Positions 2,386-36,919 of a stretch of DNA of 64,000 nucleotides are shown here, piece after piece; the stretch's first letter is position 1; every line of letters begins with the position of its first letter. Source of the stretch: Rhodococcus sp. W8901 (GTDB lineage Bacteria; Actinomycetota; Actinomycetes; Mycobacteriales; Mycobacteriaceae); contig NZ_CP054690.1 in NCBI RefSeq assembly GCF_013348805.1, forward strand, positions 4,526,001 to 4,590,000. The letters are read 5' to 3'. The notes below the pieces were generated by a model. The model ran no database searches and had not been told where the DNA came from. It saw only the letters and a program-made list of their open reading frames with translations. The position numbers and the translations under genes were made by a program.

Positions 2386-2470
2386 GGTGGCGGTCCTTCC
2401 TCTTAAGTCCTGTGTCGCCGATCCGCGACCGGACAGGTGGTGATGGTTGTGATGCGCAGGTGCGGATCAG

Positions 2471-3028
2471 CTATTCGGCAGCGGCGTCGGCGGGAGCCTC
2501 GGCGGCCCCACCTTCCGCAGCCTTCTTCTCCTGCAGCGCGGCGGCCAGACGGGCCACCTGCGAAGCGGGAGCGTTGAACAGGCCAGCGGCCTTTGCCAAG
2601 TTGCCCTTCATCGCGCCGGCGAGCTTGGCCAACAGGATCTCGCGGGACTCGAGGTCCGCGATCTGGTTGACCTGATCCACGGACAGCGCAGCGCCGTCCA
2701 TGTACCCGCCCTTGATGACGAGTGCCTTGTTGTCCTTCGCGAAAGCCTTCAGGGCCTTCGCAGCGTCGACCGGCTCGCCCTTGATGAATGCAATGGCGGT
2801 CGGTCCGACGAACAGGTCGTCAAGGCCCTCGACGCCCGCCTCAGCGGCGGCACGCTTGACCAGGGTGTTCTTGGCGACGGAGTAGGTGGCACCCTCTCCG
2901 AGAGCGCGTCGCAGCTGCGTCAGACTCGTAACCGACAGACCACGGTATTCCGTGATCACGGCGGCGGACGAGTCCTTGAACTGCTCGGTGATCTCCGCAA
3001 CTGCGGAAACCTTCTCAGGCTTTGCCAT
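2471..3028 (-). CDS. rplJ: 50S ribosomal protein L10
   Basis: 185 residues beginning [17 protein letters not shown], with the rRNA-binding N-terminal domain ([21 protein letters not shown] and NTLVKRAA) and a C-terminal helix rich in Ala/Glu that holds L12 dimers. The open frame extends 45 codons upstream, but ATG 3028 has AGGAGG 6 nt before it and matches the family start. It is the first gene of the rplJ-rplL unit. Actinobacterial rplJ is usually controlled by L10 binding to its own leader, and a structured leader lies just upstream. Confidence 0.98.
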
Positions 3029-3032
3029 ACTT

Positions 3033-3122
3033 CGCCTCCTCTCGTGACAGTCGTTGTTCCACTTCGGGCCGTGACATGCAAAACGCCCCGGTGCAGGGCA
3101 CACGGGGCGTACACGAGGAGAT
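3033..3122 (-). promoter_or_regulatory. Probable L10-type autoregulatory leader of rplJ
   Basis: Upstream of rplJ the minus strand holds a hairpin, ACGCCCC / GGGGCGT (plus positions 3081-3110), with a 14-nt loop. Just 5' of it, CTCCTC (complement of about 3115-3120) could pair with the rplJ Shine-Dalgarno GAGGAGG (3033-3043). That would allow translational control by the L10(L12) complex, which is the known mode for this operon. The pairing is my inference; I could not match the full L10-leader consensus by eye. Confidence 0.45.
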
Positions 3123-3441
3123 CCATCCACCCGGCCAGGCCGAGCGCAACAATCATCCCCCACCTCGTCCTCCTGCGTGGGCCGCCGGGCTATCCCGGAC
3201 CTTCAACCGATTCCATTGCTGAACTCGGTGACCAACGGTCTTTGGTAGAACATGTTTCGGGGCGGAATTCGCATCGAGCACCGAACTCCAAAGAGCAGCC
3301 TAACGGAGTCGCGACTCCGACACAAAACGCGGACACCCGGCAGGGTGCATTCTGTGCGCTACTTCACATTCGGTGCCGAACATGCCGGAGCGCTCACAAT
3401 TGACCGTTACCGACAGTTGCATGTAATGAGCCGCGTCGCAG
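3123..3441. other. Intergenic spacer upstream of rplJ and of the MFS remnant
   Basis: No gene seen. On the plus strand TTGACC (3400-3405) and TAATGA (3424-3429), 18 nt apart, resemble a promoter that could once have served the MFS remnant. The rplJL promoter should also lie here on the minus strand, but I could not assign it. Confidence 0.4.
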
Positions 3442-3843
3442 GTGATGTCGGTCGCCGGAGCATGTGCCGGTTCCCTCGAACAGGTGATCGCGGCACGCGC
3501 GGCGATGGGGGTGTTCGCCGCCGCCGTGTTCCCGGCGACGCTCGCACTGATCATCAACATCTTCACCGACGTCCGAGAGAAAGCGCTCGCAATCGCGGCG
3601 TGGACGGCAATGGCCGGATTCGCCATCGCCATCGGTCCCATCTCGGGCGGATGGCTCCTCGAGCACTTCTCGTGGCACGTGGTGCTCTGGATCAACGTCC
3701 CGGTGGCGTTGGTCGCGCTCGTGGCGACCGCCTCCGTCGTGCTGTGTGCGGTCGTCGTCGCGATCTTCCTGCCGTGGGCACCGGCCTGTGGCCGCTCGAC
3801 CATGCTGGCCTGGCGCCTAGACCAGGAGCGAGTCGACCACTGA
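3442..3843 (+). pseudogene. Remnant of an MFS drug transporter (DHA2-like)
   Basis: A 133-codon frame whose first 90 residues match the middle of a 14-TM MFS exporter. The stretch runs from ARAAMGVFAAAVFPATLALI through FTDVREKALAIAAWTA to GPISGGWLLEHFSWHVVLWINVP, the conserved motif-C-like region. It then passes directly into a short hydrophobic piece (ASVVLCAVVVAIFLPW) resembling the extreme C-terminal helix. Full-length proteins have roughly 450-530 residues, so the N-terminal third and a large internal block are gone and no functional transporter is possible. It sits between rplJ and rplA on the opposite strand to the ribosomal genes, where other Corynebacteriales also carry inserted genes. 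A recently translated peptide cannot be excluded. Confidence 0.75.
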
Positions 3844-3845
3844 AA

Positions 3846-3889
3846 CGCCGAAGGCCGGCACAGAGAATTCTCTGTGCCGGCCTTCGGTG
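3846..3889 (-). terminator. Terminator of rplK-rplA
   Basis: About 22-bp arms with a single G-T mismatch and essentially no loop, centred on GAATTC at 3867; it begins 27 nt after the rplA stop. Being symmetrical, it could also stop transcription from the MFS remnant on the other strand. Confidence 0.85.
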
Positions 3890-3915
3890 TCGATCAGATC
3901 GCGGAAAGTCGCGAC

Positions 3916-4629
3916 TTACTCGCCATCCTCGAGGAGGTTGCGGGTACGGTTCGGATCCACCGGGATGCCCGGTCCGGTGGTGGTCGAAACCGTGACCTTC
4001 TTGACGTAGCGGCCCTTCGCCGACGACGGCTTCGCACGCAGGATCTCGTCCAGCGCCGCACCGTAGTTCTCGACCAGCTTGGTGTCGTCGAACGACGCCT
4101 TGCCGATCACGAAGTGCAGGTTGGCCTGCTTGTCGACGCGGAAGTTGATCTTGCCGCCCTTGATGTCCGCGACAGCCTTCGCGACATCGGGGGTGACCGT
4201 GCCGGTCTTCGGGTTCGGCATCAGGCCACGCGGTCCGAGGACACGAGCGATGCGGCCGACCTTGGCCATCTGGTCAGGGGTGGCGATCGCGGCGTCGAAG
4301 TCGGTCCAACCGCCCTGGATACGCTCGATCAGGTCCTCGGAGCCCACTGCGTCCGCACCAGCGGCCTCGGCCTCGGCGGCCTTCTCGCCAACGGCGAACA
4401 CGACGACGCGGGCGGTCTTACCGGTGCCGTGCGGCAGGTTGACCGTGCCACGAACCATCTGGTCCGCCTTGCGGGGGTCGACGCCCAGACGGACGGCAAC
4501 CTCGACGGTCGCGTCCATCTTGCTCGACGAGGTCTCCTTGGCCAGCTTCGCAGCCTGCAGGGGGCTGTAGAGCGTGTCCGCGTCGATCTTCTCAGCGGCG
4601 GCGAGGTACGCCTTGCTGCGCTTTGCCAT
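3916..4629 (-). CDS. rplA: 50S ribosomal protein L1
   Basis: 237 residues, the usual length for actinobacterial L1. Hallmarks are the start [16 protein letters not shown], the RNA-binding segments around [25 protein letters not shown] and [10 protein letters not shown], and the C-terminal [16 protein letters not shown]1 binds 23S rRNA at the E site and can repress its own operon by binding mRNA. It is the second gene of rplK-rplA, with a 129-nt intergenic region that contains a small hairpin, and is followed by a strong terminator. The ATG at 4629 is preceded by TAAGGAC. Confidence 0.98.
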
Positions 4630-32487: not shown

Positions 32488-32940
32488 GTGAAAGTGATCG
32501 CATCCGTGACTGATGACTCGCACCGCTCGGCGACTGATGACTCGCACCGCTCGGCGACTGATGACTCGCACCGCTCGGCGACTGATGGCTCGCCCCGCTC
32601 GGCGGAACACAAGAGCGCGCTTCGCTCGGTACTCGACTGGCTCCGCGCCGGCTATCCGGAGGGGATTCCCGCCAAGGACCATTTCGCGCTGCTCGCCGTC
32701 CTGGGACGCCGACTGACCGACGAGGAGATCGGGCAGATCGTCGAACTGTCGATCGAAACCGCCCACGAGCATCCCGACCGGCACGTCGACTACGACGCGC
32801 TGAAGAGCATCATCGCCGGCGTCATCCGCGAGCAGCCGACCGAAGAGGACATCGCCCGCGTCACCGAGCGCCTCGCCGCGGGTGGTTGGCCCGTCGTCTC
32901 CGACGAGCAGGAAGCGTCGAGAGAACACCAATACCGCTGA
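32488..32940 (+). CDS. DUF3349 protein with repeat-encoded N-terminal extension
   Basis: 150 residues if read from GTG 32488. Residues about 42-140 form a DUF3349 domain (LRSVLDWLRAGYPEGIPAKDHFALLAVLGRRLTDEEI...TERLAAGGWPV). Before it come four 8-residue repeats, TDDSHRSA three times and TDGSPRSA once, encoded by a 24-bp tandem repeat. Start is uncertain: GTG 32506 lies directly at the first repeat, neither GTG has a clear ribosome-binding site, and homologues start near the domain. DUF3349 proteins are small, Corynebacteriales-specific and of unknown function. A second DUF3349 gene follows after 22 nt. Confidence 0.8.
   Translation: MKVIASVTDDSHRSATDDSHRSATDDSHRSATDGSPRSAEHKSALRSVLDWLRAGYPEGIPAKDHFALLAVLGRRLTDEEIGQIVELSIETAHEHPDRHVDYDALKSIIAGVIREQPTEEDIARVTERLAAGGWPVVSDEQEASREHQYR
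32509..32604 (+). repeat. 24-bp tandem repeat, four copies, in the 5' end of a DUF3349 gene
   Basis: Three identical units ACTGATGACTCGCACCGCTC+GGCG at 32509-32532, 32533-32556 and 32557-32580, and a fourth (32581-32604) with two substitutions. The period is a multiple of three, so copy-number change would keep the frame and lengthen or shorten the protein by 8 residues. Confidence 0.95.
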
Positions 32941-32962
32941 CGGACCAAGTTCAGGAGCACCA

Positions 32963-33265
32963 TTGAGCCTGCCTCCGTTCCTCTCCTCGATCATCGACTG
33001 GCTGCGCGCCGGCTACCCCAACGGCGTTCCCGAGCAGGACTATGTCCCGCTGTTCGCTCTCCTCACCCGCCGACTGTCGGAGGACGAGGTCGACATCGTG
33101 ACCGCAGCCCTGGTCGACGACGGCGACCTGCCGATCTCCAAGACCGACATCCAGGTGCTCATCACCAAGATCACCAACGAGATGCCGCTCGAATCCGACG
33201 TGGACCGCGTGCGGTCGCACCTGTCGTCCGGGGGATGGCCGCTCGCCGGTCCACCGGCGACCTGA
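32963..33265 (+). CDS. DUF3349 protein
   Basis: 100 residues, essentially only the DUF3349 domain: LSLPPFLSSIIDWLRAGYPNGVPEQDYVPLFALLTRRLSEDEVDIVTAAL...VDRVRSHLSSGGWPLAG. The start is a rare TTG at 32963, chosen because AGGAG lies 6 nt upstream and the protein then begins at the domain. It is a tandem paralogue of the preceding gene, sharing WLRAGYP and SGGWP. It is followed by menE after 41 nt, the same neighbourhood as in mycobacteria. Confidence 0.88.
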   Translation: MSLPPFLSSIIDWLRAGYPNGVPEQDYVPLFALLTRRLSEDEVDIVTAALVDDGDLPISKTDIQVLITKITNEMPLESDVDRVRSHLSSGGWPLAGPPAT

Positions 33266-33306: not shown

Positions 33307-34482
33307 GTGAGCCCGGTCCTGCACACCCTTCCGATTCCCGCCGGTAGCGCGGCGACGGCCCTCCTGCCCCGGCTCGAACGACTCCTCGACCGCGACGGCC
33401 CACCCCTCCTACCGGTACCGGAGCAGGACCAGCAGGAGACGAGACGCCTGTGCGACGCCCTGCGTCCGGGTGAGGCGATCGACGATGTGCCCGGCGCCGA
33501 CGACATCGCGCTCGTGATGGCGACCTCGGGCACCACCGGGGTCCCCAAGGGCGCCATGCTGACCTCGCGCGCGCTGCGGGCCAGCGGCGACGCGACACAC
33601 CGCAGGCTCGGCGGGCCCGGGTCGTGGTTGCTGGCACTGCCGGCACACCACATCGCGGGCATGCAGGTGCTGCTGCGGAGCGTGCTGGCCGGCGCCGCGC
33701 CCGTCGTCGTCGACGTCACACGCGGATTCGATCCGGCGACCCTGCCGGCAGCCGTCGACGCGATGGCGGGGCCACGTCGCTACACCTCGCTGGTGCCCAC
33801 CCAACTGGTCAAGGCCCTCGACGACGCCGCGGCGGCCGCCGCACTCGCCGAACTGGACGCCGTCCTCCTCGGTGGCGCCGCGACACCTCCGCCGCTCCTG
33901 CGCCGGGCCGTCGACGCCGGACTGACGATCGTGCGCACCTACGGGATGAGCGAGACGTGCGGCGGGTGCGTCTACGACGGCACACCCCTCGACGGTGTGC
34001 GGGTCCGCATCGCGGACGACTCCCGCGTCCTGCTCGGTGGAGACACGCTCGCATCGGGGTACCGCGGGATTCCCGATCACCCGGCCTTCAGCGAGCCCGG
34101 ATGGTTCCGCACCGACGATGCCGGAACCGTCACCGACGGCGTCCTGACGATCCGCGGGCGGTTGGACGAGGCGATCTCCACCGGCGGTCTGACGGTGGTG
34201 CCGCAGGTGGTCGAAGCCGTCCTGATGGAGCACCCGGACGTTCGCGAATGCGCGGTGCTCGGTGTCCCCGACGAACGACTCGGCCAGCGGGTGGTGGCGG
34301 CGATCGTGCCGGAGGACGGGACCGCCCCCACCGTCGACGACCTGCGGGCCCATGTCGGCGCCTCGCTCGACGCGACCGCGGCACCGCGGGAGGTGAAATT
34401 CGTCCGCTCACTCCCGCTGCGGGGGCCGGGCAAGGTGGACCGCAAGGCCCTGCAGACAGCCTGGATTCGAACGAATAATTGA
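33307..34482 (+). CDS. menE: o-Succinylbenzoate-CoA ligase
   Basis: 391 residues, a short acyl-adenylate enzyme: ATP-binding VMATSGTTGVPKGAMLTS, IVRTYGMSETCGGCVYDG (A5), WFRTDDAG, hinge and C-domain GRLDEAISTGGLTVVPQVVEAVL, and the C-terminal catalytic Lys in RGPGKVDRKAL. It makes OSB-CoA for MenB. It is shorter than typical MenE from Firmicutes but normal for Corynebacteriales, which lack part of the N-terminal domain. GTG start with GAGGA very close to it. Last gene of the pitA-menE run. Confidence 0.93.
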   Translation: MSPVLHTLPIPAGSAATALLPRLERLLDRDGPPLLPVPEQDQQETRRLCDALRPGEAIDDVPGADDIALVMATSGTTGVPKGAMLTSRALRASGDATHRRLGGPGSWLLALPAHHIAGMQVLLRSVLAGAAPVVVDVTRGFDPATLPAAVDAMAGPRRYTSLVPTQLVKALDDAAAAAALAELDAVLLGGAATPPPLLRRAVDAGLTIVRTYGMSETCGGCVYDGTPLDGVRVRIADDSRVLLGGDTLASGYRGIPDHPAFSEPGWFRTDDAGTVTDGVLTIRGRLDEAISTGGLTVVPQVVEAVLMEHPDVRECAVLGVPDERLGQRVVAAIVPEDGTAPTVDDLRAHVGASLDATAAPREVKFVRSLPLRGPGKVDRKALQTAWIRTNN

Positions 34483-34514
34483 TCCAGTTGATCAGTATCT
34501 GCCGGCCGAGACAC

Positions 34515-34739
34515 GATTGTTACTCTTCGGCGCGGCGGGTTCGGCGCGACGGTTCTCCCTGATCAAAGGGAGTGCAGCGGGGAGGTAAACGATTCGGCGC
34601 CACCCGCGGGCGCGGCCGATTCCGCCGAAAACCCTTGCCCGAAAACGTAAACGGGCCATGCTTCGCCTGTGATCTTGGTTTCGGGGAACCGAGCACCGCG
34701 ATCGCCTGTCCACCGACACTCCATCGACAGGGGTTGATC
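34515..34739 (+). promoter_or_regulatory. Long leader A, upstream of secreted paralogue 1
   Basis: This stretch shares several blocks with leader B (35389-35642): GATTGTTAC, CTGATCAAA 44 nt later, ATGCTTC, and TGATCTTGGTTTCGGGGAACCG..C.CCGCGATC close to the gene. CTTGGTT / AACCGAG forms a 7-bp stem with a 6-nt loop at 34673-34692. No open frame with coding character is present. I read it as promoter plus structured 5' UTR; its identity is unknown. Confidence 0.6.
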
Positions 34740-35273
34740 ATGCAAACACGTCCGTCTACATCTCAGCTGTTACGCCGCACGACCGTCGGGGCCGTCCTCG
34801 TCGGCGTGTCGGCACTCACCGCACCCGCAGTTGCGGGCGCGGAAACCGTGGAGCTCACCCGCCCCACAGTGACGTTCACCGTCACCGACAGCACTTTCGA
34901 CCTGACGCTCGAGAATCCCAACAGCGATCCGACCAGCAGTTGCGGGGCGTTCGTGGTCCAGGCCTCGAAGCTCTCCGCACTCGAGGAGGATCCGTCGAGG
35001 ATCAACGAACCCGGCTTCCTGACATGGCGGACCGCACGCAGCGAGCGCGTCGCGGCCGACTCGTCCCGGACCTACACCTTCGACGTCCCGCGCGGATTCT
35101 ATGCCGTTGTGGGCGAATGTGTTTCGCCCACACAACCGAAGCCGTCCGCGAGCGATCCGCAGGTGGTGTCGGTTCCGCGCAGCCAGTACACAGGCAGTTC
35201 GAGCGCAGCCCCCGCAAACATCGCGGGCATCGCCCGCGGCCTCTTCTCCGGCGGCTCGCTCGCCGCAGGGTAG
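34740..35273 (+). CDS. Secreted paralogue 1 (unknown family, two-Cys beta-type domain)
   Basis: 177 residues. Sec signal peptide (RRTTVGAVLVGVSALTAPAVAGA, cleavage near residue 34), then a single domain of about 130 residues: RPTVTFTVTDSTFDLTLENPN, Cys68 in SSCGAF, LEEDPSRINEPGFLTW, YAVVGEC with Cys127, and QVVSVP. The two Cys probably form a disulfide. It is clearly paralogous to the next two genes. No membrane anchor, lipobox or sortase signal. ATG 34740 follows AGGGGTTG. I do not recognise the family; an Ig-like or beta-sandwich envelope protein is a guess from composition. Confidence 0.88.
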   Translation: MQTRPSTSQLLRRTTVGAVLVGVSALTAPAVAGAETVELTRPTVTFTVTDSTFDLTLENPNSDPTSSCGAFVVQASKLSALEEDPSRINEPGFLTWRTARSERVAADSSRTYTFDVPRGFYAVVGECVSPTQPKPSASDPQVVSVPRSQYTGSSSAAPANIAGIARGLFSGGSLAAG

Positions 35274-35284
35274 CCCGAGTCGGA

Positions 35285-35322
35285 GCATCGGCCGGGCAGG
35301 AAACCCCCTGCCCGGCCGATGC
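35285..35322 (+). terminator. Terminator after secreted paralogue 1
   Basis: GCATCGGCCGGGCAGG / CCTGCCCGGCCGATGC, 16-bp perfect arms, 6-nt loop, 12 nt after the stop. It makes the gene monocistronic. Confidence 0.85.
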
Positions 35323-35388
35323 GAACCGACCGCCCCGAAATTCGGGTAGTTGAACAAGCAATTGAATACCTAACGACCACTGAAACAA

Positions 35389-35642
35389 GATTGTTACATA
35401 GGTCCCAAACCGGCTCGTACGGTGGGGATTTCCGCTGATCAAACATCGTTACCGGGCGGTAGGAACGGAACATTCCTCGCACCGAGGACCGCATTTCGTT
35501 ACGGCCCCGAGAGGTTCACCTTGCGGGAACTTGACCCAACCCCGATGCTTCTCCCCAGTGATCTTGGTTTCGGGTCTTGGTTTCGGGGAGCCGGGCGCCG
35601 CGATCACGTGTTTCGAACACTCGTACTCAACAGGAGTTGTCC
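35389..35642 (+). promoter_or_regulatory. Long leader B, upstream of secreted paralogue 2
   Basis: Homologous to leader A in block order and spacing (GATTGTTAC to CTGATCAAA is 46 nt here, 44 there). The hairpin block carries an internal 13-bp duplication (CTTGGTTTCGGGT, CTTGGTTTCGGGG). The stem is kept by G-U replacement (CTTGGTT / AGCCGGG), which suggests an RNA structure under selection. GTTAC occurs three times (35393, 35449, 35498). No gene is seen in the 369-base gap. Confidence 0.6.
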
Positions 35643-36197
35643 ATGCACGTGCGTACTCGAAATCTGTTCACCCGCAGTGTGGCCGGTGTCGCGATTGCCG
35701 GCGCAGCCGCTCTCGCCGCCCCTGCCCTCGCGTCGGCCGCACCCGCGGTCAAGGCGCCGACGGTCACCGCGGCCGCCGCGAGCAGCACCATCACGGTGAC
35801 GGTGGCGAACCCCAATACCGATCCTTCCGTCACGTGTGGCGCCCACGCCTTCGCCGCGTCGCGCGCGAGTGAACTGGAGAAGGATCCCTCCAAGCTCTTC
35901 GAGCCCGGATTCACGTTCTGGAAGGTCTCCGACAAGGCCCGCGTCGGCGCGTCCGACACCAAGTCCTTCACCACGCCGGAGTTCAACGACGGCGTGTTTG
36001 CCGTTGTCGGCGAATGCACTTCGGCCAACGGCGGCACGCCGGTGCTGGGCAAGCCCCAGGTCGTCAGCCTGCCCGAGGACGCGATCTTCGGCAGCCTGCG
36101 CAACGGCGCACTCGAGAACGTCCTCGACTTCGTCCTGGAGGGCAACATCGACGGACTGATCAAGGCCATCTCGGCCGGATCGACTCAGCCCGCCTGA
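35643..36197 (+). CDS. Secreted paralogue 2 (unknown family)
   Basis: 184 residues: signal peptide MHVRTRNLFTRSVAGVAIAG...ALASAAPA (cleavage near 32-34), then APTVTAAAASSTITVTVANPN, Cys65 in TCGAHAF, LEKDPSKLFEPGFTFWK, VFAVVGEC with Cys125, PQVVSLP. It has an extra helical tail (FGSLRNGALENVLDFVLEGNIDGLIKAISAG) absent from paralogue 1 and similar in place to the tail of paralogue 3. Cys spacing (60) matches its neighbours. CAGGAGTT precedes ATG 35643. Function unknown; extracellular or wall-associated. Confidence 0.88.
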   Translation: MHVRTRNLFTRSVAGVAIAGAAALAAPALASAAPAVKAPTVTAAAASSTITVTVANPNTDPSVTCGAHAFAASRASELEKDPSKLFEPGFTFWKVSDKARVGASDTKSFTTPEFNDGVFAVVGECTSANGGTPVLGKPQVVSLPEDAIFGSLRNGALENVLDFVLEGNIDGLIKAISAGSTQPA

Positions 36198-36220
36198 CAG
36201 ACCACCCGCACCACAGAACG

Positions 36221-36267
36221 TGCGCGGCGGTCCGGACACCAGTCGGGGATGCCCGGGCCGCCGCGCA
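36221..36267 (+). terminator. Terminator after secreted paralogue 2
   Basis: TGCGCGGCGGTCCGG / CCGGGCCGCCGCGCA, 15-bp arms with one G-T pair and a 17-nt loop, followed by TCCTTTCC. Confidence 0.7.
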
Positions 36268-36343
36268 TCCTTTCCTGATCCGCTCGCCGTGTCCGCCTCG
36301 CGGTTCCTCGCGCCGAGCCGGCCACTGTCGAAAGGTCCACACC

Positions 36344-36868
36344 ATGCGCTTACGTTCCACCTCACTCGTCACCCGTCTGGCGGCAGGGAGTGCCGTCGCC
36401 GCCGCGGCCCTGATCGCTGCTCCCGCGCTCGCGTCCGCCGCGCCCGCCACCTTCACTGGACCCACCGTGACGGCGGAGGCCGCCGGAGATGCGATCGCCG
36501 TCTCCATCACCAACCCCAACGTCGACTTCCCGACGAGCACGTGCGGTGCCGTCGCGATCGACTCCGTCAAGGTGCCCGAGGCGGTCGACGACCCGCTCAA
36601 GCTGCTCGAGCCCGGATTCGTTGCTTGGACCAGTGGTCTCGACAGCGTCGGCGCGGGTGTCACCAAGGCGTACACGACACCGGCCCTCACCGGTGGCATG
36701 TACGCCGTCGTGGGCGCGTGTGTGTCGCTGGCCAATCCCGTTCCCGAGCTGGGCGATCCGGTCCTCGTCGGTGTCGGTGACACCTTCGGCAGCCTCGGGA
36801 CGATCACCGGCAGCCTCGGTGACTTCATCCCGAACATCGGCGACCTGATCGGTGGCCTACTGAAGTAG
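36344..36868 (+). CDS. Secreted paralogue 3 (unknown family)
   Basis: 174 residues: signal peptide MRLRSTSLVTRLAAGSAVAAAALIAAPALASAAPA, then GPTVTAEAAGDAIAVSITNPN, Cys67 in TCGAVAI, VDDPLKLLEPGFVAW, TTPALTGGMYAVVGACVS with Cys126, and a Gly/Ile/Leu-rich tail (GSLGTITGSLGDFIPNIGDLIGGLLK) that may associate with lipid. GAAAGG precedes ATG 36344. The upstream sequence is not related to leaders A and B and is short (146 nt), so it may also be expressed by readthrough from paralogue 2. Confidence 0.87.
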   Translation: MRLRSTSLVTRLAAGSAVAAAALIAAPALASAAPATFTGPTVTAEAAGDAIAVSITNPNVDFPTSTCGAVAIDSVKVPEAVDDPLKLLEPGFVAWTSGLDSVGAGVTKAYTTPALTGGMYAVVGACVSLANPVPELGDPVLVGVGDTFGSLGTITGSLGDFIPNIGDLIGGLLK

Positions 36869-36886
36869 CTCGACCCGCACGAAGAC

Positions 36887-36919
36887 CCGGGCCCGCGGTG
36901 CATTGCACCGCGAGCCCGG
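36887..36919 (+). terminator. Terminator after secreted paralogue 3
   Basis: CCGGGCCCGCGGTGCA / TGCACCGCGAGCCCGG, 16-bp arms with one mismatch and a 1-nt gap, 18 nt after the stop. Confidence 0.75.

Follow-up and report, generated by a model that had tools for sequence, protein, structure and literature searches.

Three tandem genes on the plus strand of a 64,000-nucleotide stretch of DNA from Rhodococcus sp. W8901 (contig NZ_CP054690.1, positions 4,526,001 to 4,590,000; the whole stretch is termed the window here) encode small proteins with two cysteines each, P1, P2 and P3, which are real paralogues and which, as our searches support, belong to a family absent from the protein libraries consulted. 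With a confidence somewhat short of even, we favour the reading that these proteins are exported, single-domain surface modules, with a putative retention in the cell envelope and a putative modification and partner there. The analysis on which this reading is built comprises the paralogy of the genes, their distribution, the two cysteines present in each aligned member, a predicted fold, synteny, conservation of a leader and enrichment of Gly-Ser in the tails. The shared promoter-leader, an MtrA-like repeat and the Gly-Ser tail are additions to an earlier sequence-only reading of the same genes.

According to the mechanism put forward, signal peptides, the use of which was judged by eye, would be cleaved from P1-P3, and each mature protein would form one FN3/Ig-like beta-sandwich with one closing disulfide and a two-helix insert carrying a DP..EPGF block. 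A Gly-Ser-Leu tail may keep each protein in the mycolate-containing envelope, perhaps via O-acylation of tail serines, and the displayed domain could then serve as a spacer, a scaffold or an adhesive module. P1 and P2 would each be transcribed from a promoter of the same type, the RNA presumably beginning with a conserved hairpin that probably serves control of stability or translation, and an upstream MtrA-like repeat may add cell-wall or osmotic control.

The two-cysteine family

34740-35273, plus strand: P1, putatively exported two-cysteine protein of 177 residues (P0001)
35643-36197, plus strand: P2, putatively exported two-cysteine protein of 184 residues (P0002), the mature part of which was folded
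36344-36868, plus strand: P3, putatively exported two-cysteine protein of 174 residues (P0003)

The three open reading frames (ORFs) have the order and lengths given by the sequence-only reading, with 34740-36868 extending from the start of P1 to the stop of P3. BLASTP identities are 43% over 113 residues for P1/P2, 47% over 179 residues for P2/P3 and 36% over 138 residues for P1/P3, and the pairwise expectation values (E) of 1e-29, 3e-27 and 1e-22 lie far outside chance. The cysteines are located at 68/127 in P1, 65/125 in P2 and 67/126 in P3, exactly as had been reported. All 45 aligned mature members contain exactly two cysteines, 59-75 residues apart and in 29 of the 45 at a distance of 59 or 60, which backs the earlier proposal of a conserved, putative disulfide. 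The sequence motifs described as common to the three proteins are confirmed in general, except that (D/E)DP is restricted to P1 and P3, the P2 motif being KDPSKLFEPGF, and that the last motif, given as PxVV, is PVLV in P3.

The earlier description of the family as unrecognised is borne out. With P1-P3, no Pfam family was found at E up to 10 and the gathering cut-offs of FN3, Ig and Big models were not reached, while the best NCBIfam match (E 0.082) fell under every cut-off. The 45 relatives gave no significant Pfam match, the best one (E 0.02) being to unrelated models. Among PDB sequences P2 as query gave a best E of 0.34, which is not significant, and the family profile gave no match. Furthermore, a literature search, limited to the titles and abstract openings listed and covering few subscription papers, yielded no description of the two-cysteine family, of its leader or of its tail.

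The family extends beyond a single strain. A fourth close paralogue, termed C-type, is encoded in the window genome (G000:C1:621550-622089), and with a 45-row profile at E up to 0.001 orthologues were found in all 14 Prescottella genomes. The same profile and threshold detected the family, distant subfamilies included, in at least 70 of 401 genomes of the bacterial family; at E up to 1e-4 it was present in at least four of 298 genomes from the order, of which three belong to the same bacterial family, and it was found in at least one of 296 genomes drawn from the class, namely the window genome itself. The last three counts are lower bounds, because 9-13 candidates were scored per genome. With the family alignment A1, nine loci on named contigs of Prescottella and Rhodococcus were found. 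The 45-row alignment (A3) omits the multi-domain proteins of genomes G012 and G004, P3 of G009 (with an apparently frame-broken end), near-duplicates and the weak matches L081 and L084, and in three rows, those of L069, L070 and the second gene of L043, the C-terminus is shortened by the choice of coordinates. The G012 locus L062 (5202-6836, minus strand) encodes a protein of 542 residues in which the domain occurs four times in tandem behind a signal-like start. A mobile origin of P2 was rejected, as no match was obtained among 72,556 plasmid records and 50,697 phage records.

Predicted fold

Mature P2 was modelled with AlphaFold2 as a seven-strand FN3/Ig-like beta-sandwich, a common fold, with a helical insert that bears the DP..EPGF block, and P1-P3 are predicted to fold like antibody-type modules. 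The C-terminal tail of P2 is poorly defined in the model, with low values of the predicted local distance difference test (pLDDT). An amphipathic tail helix was considered and rejected, the moments of the two predicted helices of P2 (0.13 and 0.47) being unconvincing.

The Gly-Ser tail

The tails of 44 of the 45 members were measured, the first 10 residues of each being left off. They consist of 17.8% Gly and 10.9% Ser and contain 113 Gly-Ser (GS) doublets versus 34.5 expected from composition, a count in which the doublets are not independent events because the members are related, whereas the cores contain eight versus 20.5 expected. An exact GS end is seen in nine of the 45, a group that includes no P1, P2, P3 or C-type protein. 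The tails resemble the ends of a few other exported proteins of the same bacterium, which may hint at a shared mode of envelope retention.

The clearest form of this resemblance is a terminal Phe-Gly-Ser (FGS), which we regard as a lead and not as proof. In the window genome the pattern F-G-[Ser-like]-stop has 49 matches versus 28 for the reversed pattern. Eight of the matches lie on one strand within 20 kb, and six of these eight are ends of tandem ORFs. The respective array (G000:C1:253733-274540; L236 3733-20000 and L237 1-4540) comprises eight genes in tandem, the products of which are 436-1250 residues long and have signal-peptide-like starts. FGS ends seven of the eight, one of which was not listed by the pattern, probably owing to its stop codon, and the three of the eight that were run against Pfam all proved to be Big_3_5 (PF16640). 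Genes resembling those for galactofuranosyl- and decaprenyl-phosphoribose transferases were noticed by eye downstream of this array. A GH25 lysozyme (L192-L205) ends in FFGS in all 14 Prescottella orthologues, and an NHL protein (L184-L191), present in six of the 14 genomes, ends in FGS in seven of eight matches, with a divergent linker preceding it; the eighth departs near its end, probably through a frame break.

Several results weigh against a retention function of the tail. Two home-made rules for export were applied. Under the loose rule, which called 209 of 355 proteins in a sample of the window genome exported, the exported-looking tails contain 87 GS versus 66.3 expected (n=209) and the other tails 64 versus 39.9 (n=146), that is, there is no export-specific excess. 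Under the strict rule (48 of 574 proteins exported-looking, 0.88 Mb) a GS end occurs in 4/48 exported-looking versus 8/526 other proteins, with a p of 0.013 that belongs to one of four patterns tried, and one of the four exported-looking proteins resembles a membrane protein. These modest statistics, the fact that seven of the FGS proteins are tandem neighbours and the occurrence of FGS ends in at least four proteins judged by eye to be cytosolic all suit the view that the GS and FGS patterns are a side effect of paralogy and of Gly-Ser-Leu ends of low complexity, without any sorting function. We consider this to come close to an even chance. On the other hand, it does not readily account for a GS content three times the composition-matched expectation in family tails and below expectation in cores, nor for the retention of FGS in 14 of 14 GH25 orthologues.

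P1-P3 may also be freely secreted soluble proteins, i.e. ligand binders, inhibitors or antigens of the MPT63 kind, with the tail as a flexible and weakly constrained end, an alternative that we judge less probable but still substantial. Signal peptides assigned by eye, a small single domain, the poorly defined tail of the P2 model and the lack of an export-specific GS excess under the loose rule are in line with it, and inspection of P1-P3 by eye revealed no second transmembrane segment, no sortase motif and no lipobox. However, a GS doublet lies 22-25 residues past the second cysteine in 36 of 44 related tails while the rest diverges, and the GH25 and NHL proteins retain their terminal FGS despite divergence. 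Envelope-retained surface modules are the reading we prefer.

Predicted promoter, leader and upstream repeat

34505-34523, plus strand: MtrA-like direct repeat upstream of P1, half-sites matching 3/8 and 8/8 of ATTGTTAC with a 3-bp linker
34635-34662, plus strand: predicted promoter of P1, TTGCCC-N16-CATGCT (pattern match)
34669-34705, plus strand: predicted 5' leader hairpin of P1, GTGATC...GATCGC, -19.6 kcal/mol, z -3.71
35285-35322, plus strand: strong GC hairpin 3' of P1, T-run absent
35379-35397, plus strand: MtrA-like direct repeat upstream of P2, half-sites matching 5/8 and 8/8 of ATTGTTAC
35521-35549, plus strand: predicted promoter of P2, TTGCGG-N17-GATGCT (pattern match)
35558-35607, plus strand: predicted 5' leader hairpin of P2, GTGATC...GATCAC, the arm carrying an insertion of 13 nt, -24.6 kcal/mol, z -2.99
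36222-36267, plus strand: GC hairpin 3' of P2, T-run absent
36887-36919, plus strand: GC hairpin 3' of P3

P1, P2 and the C-type paralogue have a predicted promoter and a 5' hairpin in common, and the hairpin is predicted at the message start for the majority of family genes. The simple promoter pattern TTG...-N15/18-.AT..T precedes 16 of the 21 P1, P2 and C-type genes, and the inverted repeat GTGATC...GATCAC follows 6-8 nt 3' of it, a distance that places the predicted transcription start at the foot of the hairpin. The 16 leaders folded have z values between -0.82 and -4.59; for three of them 16-40 of 200 shuffles were equally stable. Model R1 was built from 19 leaders, including that of P1 and omitting those of the window P2, G001 P2, the C-type gene of G000 and all P3-type genes except that of G008. 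In the window its only good-score matches are at P1 (34630-34706, E 1.2e-14) and at P2 (35515-35608, E 4.5e-13), the latter from outside the training set, and no copy was detectable at P3. With 150 candidates scored per genome, out of 2411-4254 from a first look, R1 found at least 23 matches with E <1e-5 in the 14 genomes, all upstream of family genes and four of them outside the training set. Weak matches (E 0.006-1.4) before seven P3-type genes (G002, G003, G006, G009, G010, G011 and G013) stand among chance matches of similar score. In G007, which has P3 and no P2, a leader lies before the P3-type gene (L056, G007:C1:3108295-3108372), as if the P2 gene had been lost and its leader retained before P3.

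Outside the family the best match listed (G011:C1:747604, E 6e-4) extends over the 3' end of a regulator-like ORF, and we attribute it to chance. The second one listed (G008:C1:4752233, E 0.006) is positioned in front of an ORF, and in G002 and G012 two weaker matches coincide with ORFs. This appraisal covered the best matches listed, many with E 0.02-10 falling outside it, and among those listed a wide use of the leader beyond the family is not supported. A known riboswitch or leader RNA was likewise rejected: at the Rfam 15 gathering score the window contains only four tRNAs, and at E up to 10 the five sub-threshold matches in 34400-36900 include none of relevance. In the loci L042 and L067, from two Rhodococcus-type relatives, a long near-perfect inverted repeat (GAATGTCACAGTGGTTCAGTTC...) precedes the family gene by roughly 90-135 nt.

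It is unlikely, though well within consideration, that GTGATC...GATCAC is a DNA operator, at which a regulator would bind the inverted repeat near +1, instead of an RNA hairpin. In favour of the operator, the 19 aligned leaders show no variation in the 5' half, and two-sided covariation was looked for in them and not found: four of eight stem pairs vary on one side and none on both, which is no better than in shuffles. The changes that do occur are A to G opposite U, however, and preserve the RNA pair, and the half-site distance varies, being 29-32 nt in most cases, 40 nt at P3 of G008, 44 nt at P2 with its 13-nt insertion and 55 nt at the C-type gene of G000. Inner arms of different sequence are still predicted to pair from gene to gene. 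Shifting the partner by 1-3 columns reduces pairing from 97% to 27-42%, a comparison in which the structure derives from the same sequences. An RNA hairpin at the start of the message remains the reading we adopt, with a probable function in stability or translation.

The direct repeats upstream of P1 and P2 resemble the MtrA consensus (A/G)TAACAATttn(A/G)TAACAAT (PMC3353115), and a similar motif is described for mycobacteria in PMC6265350. The scan covered P1, P2 and C-type genes and P3-type genes. The sequence most similar to ATTGTTAC-n3-ATTGTTAC is situated 223-265 nt before the ATG, on the same strand, in 18 of the 21 genes of the P1, P2 and C-type groups, and p was <=0.05 against 60 Markov shuffles for 13 of these 21 and for two of 11 P3-type genes. 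From its sequence, the repeat may point to cell-wall or osmotic control. At the other end of the genes, the claim that each has its own terminator could not be upheld, since the GC hairpins lack a T-run and a consensus scan found no T-tailed terminator 3' of P1, P2 or P3.

Neighbourhood and evolutionary history

P2 and/or P3 are located 3' of a menE-like gene in 11 of 14 genomes (that of the window, G001-G003, G006-G011 and G013), and in 10 of these 11 genes for an ATP-binding cassette (ABC) transporter follow; the labels menE, ABC and PiT were given by eye and stem from no family search. That P1-P3 are extracytoplasmic partners of this transporter, as the position of the P2/P3 block between the menE-like and ABC genes would allow, is very improbable, since none of these neighbours was found around the C-type paralogue (L045, L047, L050, L053, L055, L058, L061 and L065) and in G008 (L057), which has P2 and P3, no ABC pair was found between P3 and a large regulator gene in a 12-kb stretch.

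In a 39-row tree the P2 and P3 clades have bootstrap values of 100 each and each spans the genomes holding the gene; P2-P3 is an old syntenic pair. P1 nests within the C-type group at forks with bootstrap values of 85-92, of which one is drawn open and none has a star, and P1 of G000 was flagged by the tree tool for its letter composition. Since only G000 and G001 hold P1, the most plausible reading is that the C-type gene was copied later and the copy placed before the older P2-P3 pair, and the tandem trio is a lineage-specific arrangement of two of the 14 genomes. The contention that the array is no recent duplication applies to P2 versus P3; P1 is a separate, lineage-restricted arrival. In four genome pairs the ratio of nonsynonymous to synonymous substitution rates (dN/dS) is 0.15-0.38 for the two-cysteine family and 0.07-0.21 for four neighbour genes; the family is higher overall, with overlapping ranges (for G000-G001, PiT at 0.211 exceeds P2 at 0.197 and P3 at 0.182). 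Elsewhere in the window, 32488-32940 and 32882-33265 are adjoining small paralogues that cross-match each other's orthologues at 35-41% identity, the product of the former having a repeated TDDSHRSA-type N-terminus, possibly due to the start chosen.

Significance and comparison with known systems

The family represents an unlisted set of candidate surface proteins in all 14 genomes searched of a genus that includes an animal pathogen, and in these genomes every strong match listed to its leader, a cis element, precedes a family gene. A broader reading, which we consider rather improbable, is that the C-terminal Gly-Ser tail, most clearly as terminal FGS, would be a general sorting or lipidation signal, e.g. 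for serine O-mycoloylation, in Prescottella and relatives, placing unrelated exported proteins (the Ig-like family, the tandem Big_3_5 proteins, the NHL protein and the GH25 lysozyme) in the mycolate envelope, and that most Prescottella family messages would begin with a dedicated, family-specific 5' hairpin. If true, the tripeptide common to these unrelated proteins would be a directly testable sorting signal.

Among solved structures, FN3 domains of sDscam, PTP delta, contactin and CDO have a beta-sandwich similar to the predicted P2 fold. Identity to them is only 6-18%, there is no credible Pfam match, and the two-cysteine family adds the two-helix DP..EPGF insert and one invariant disulfide candidate. 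The Big_3_5 proteins of the window genome share signal-like N-termini, Ig-like domains, a tandem array and a Gly-Ser-Leu tail with P1-P3 but are much larger (436-1250 residues) with many repeats, and their region is not among the family matches in that genome. MPT63 of M. tuberculosis, of the family DUF1942, is also a small exported Ig-like protein; no sequence match between it and P1-P3 appeared in Pfam (E up to 10) or in the PDB searches with P2 and the profile, and it is not among the 50 structure matches listed for the predicted P2 fold. Pfam includes a Vap model. The Vap virulence proteins of Rhodococcus equi are, like P1-P3, small, exported and found in Prescottella, some at the cell surface and some secreted (PMC10903876). 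P1-P3 differ from them in being chromosomal, in matching no Pfam model and, for P2, in the lack of any match in the 72,556 plasmid records, and membership in the Vap family is not indicated by these searches. In the R. equi genome, 44.5% of secreted products are of unknown function according to PMC2947987.

Little is known of how proteins reach the mycolate outer membrane. In Corynebacterium glutamicum, O-mycoloylation affects Ser/Thr within flexible segments rich in Gly, Ser and Ala, and no strict consensus is reported (PMC11066868). Such sites suit the Gly-Ser tails of the P1-P3 family, which would offer accessible serines in flexible Gly/Ser/Ala stretches of putatively exported proteins and may be modified in the same way. 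Whereas the C. glutamicum sites follow no strict consensus, a terminal FGS recurs in the proteins considered here; in the reading proposed, P1-P3 would resemble the O-mycoloylated proteins of C. glutamicum in being envelope proteins of a mycolate bacterium (PMC11066868).
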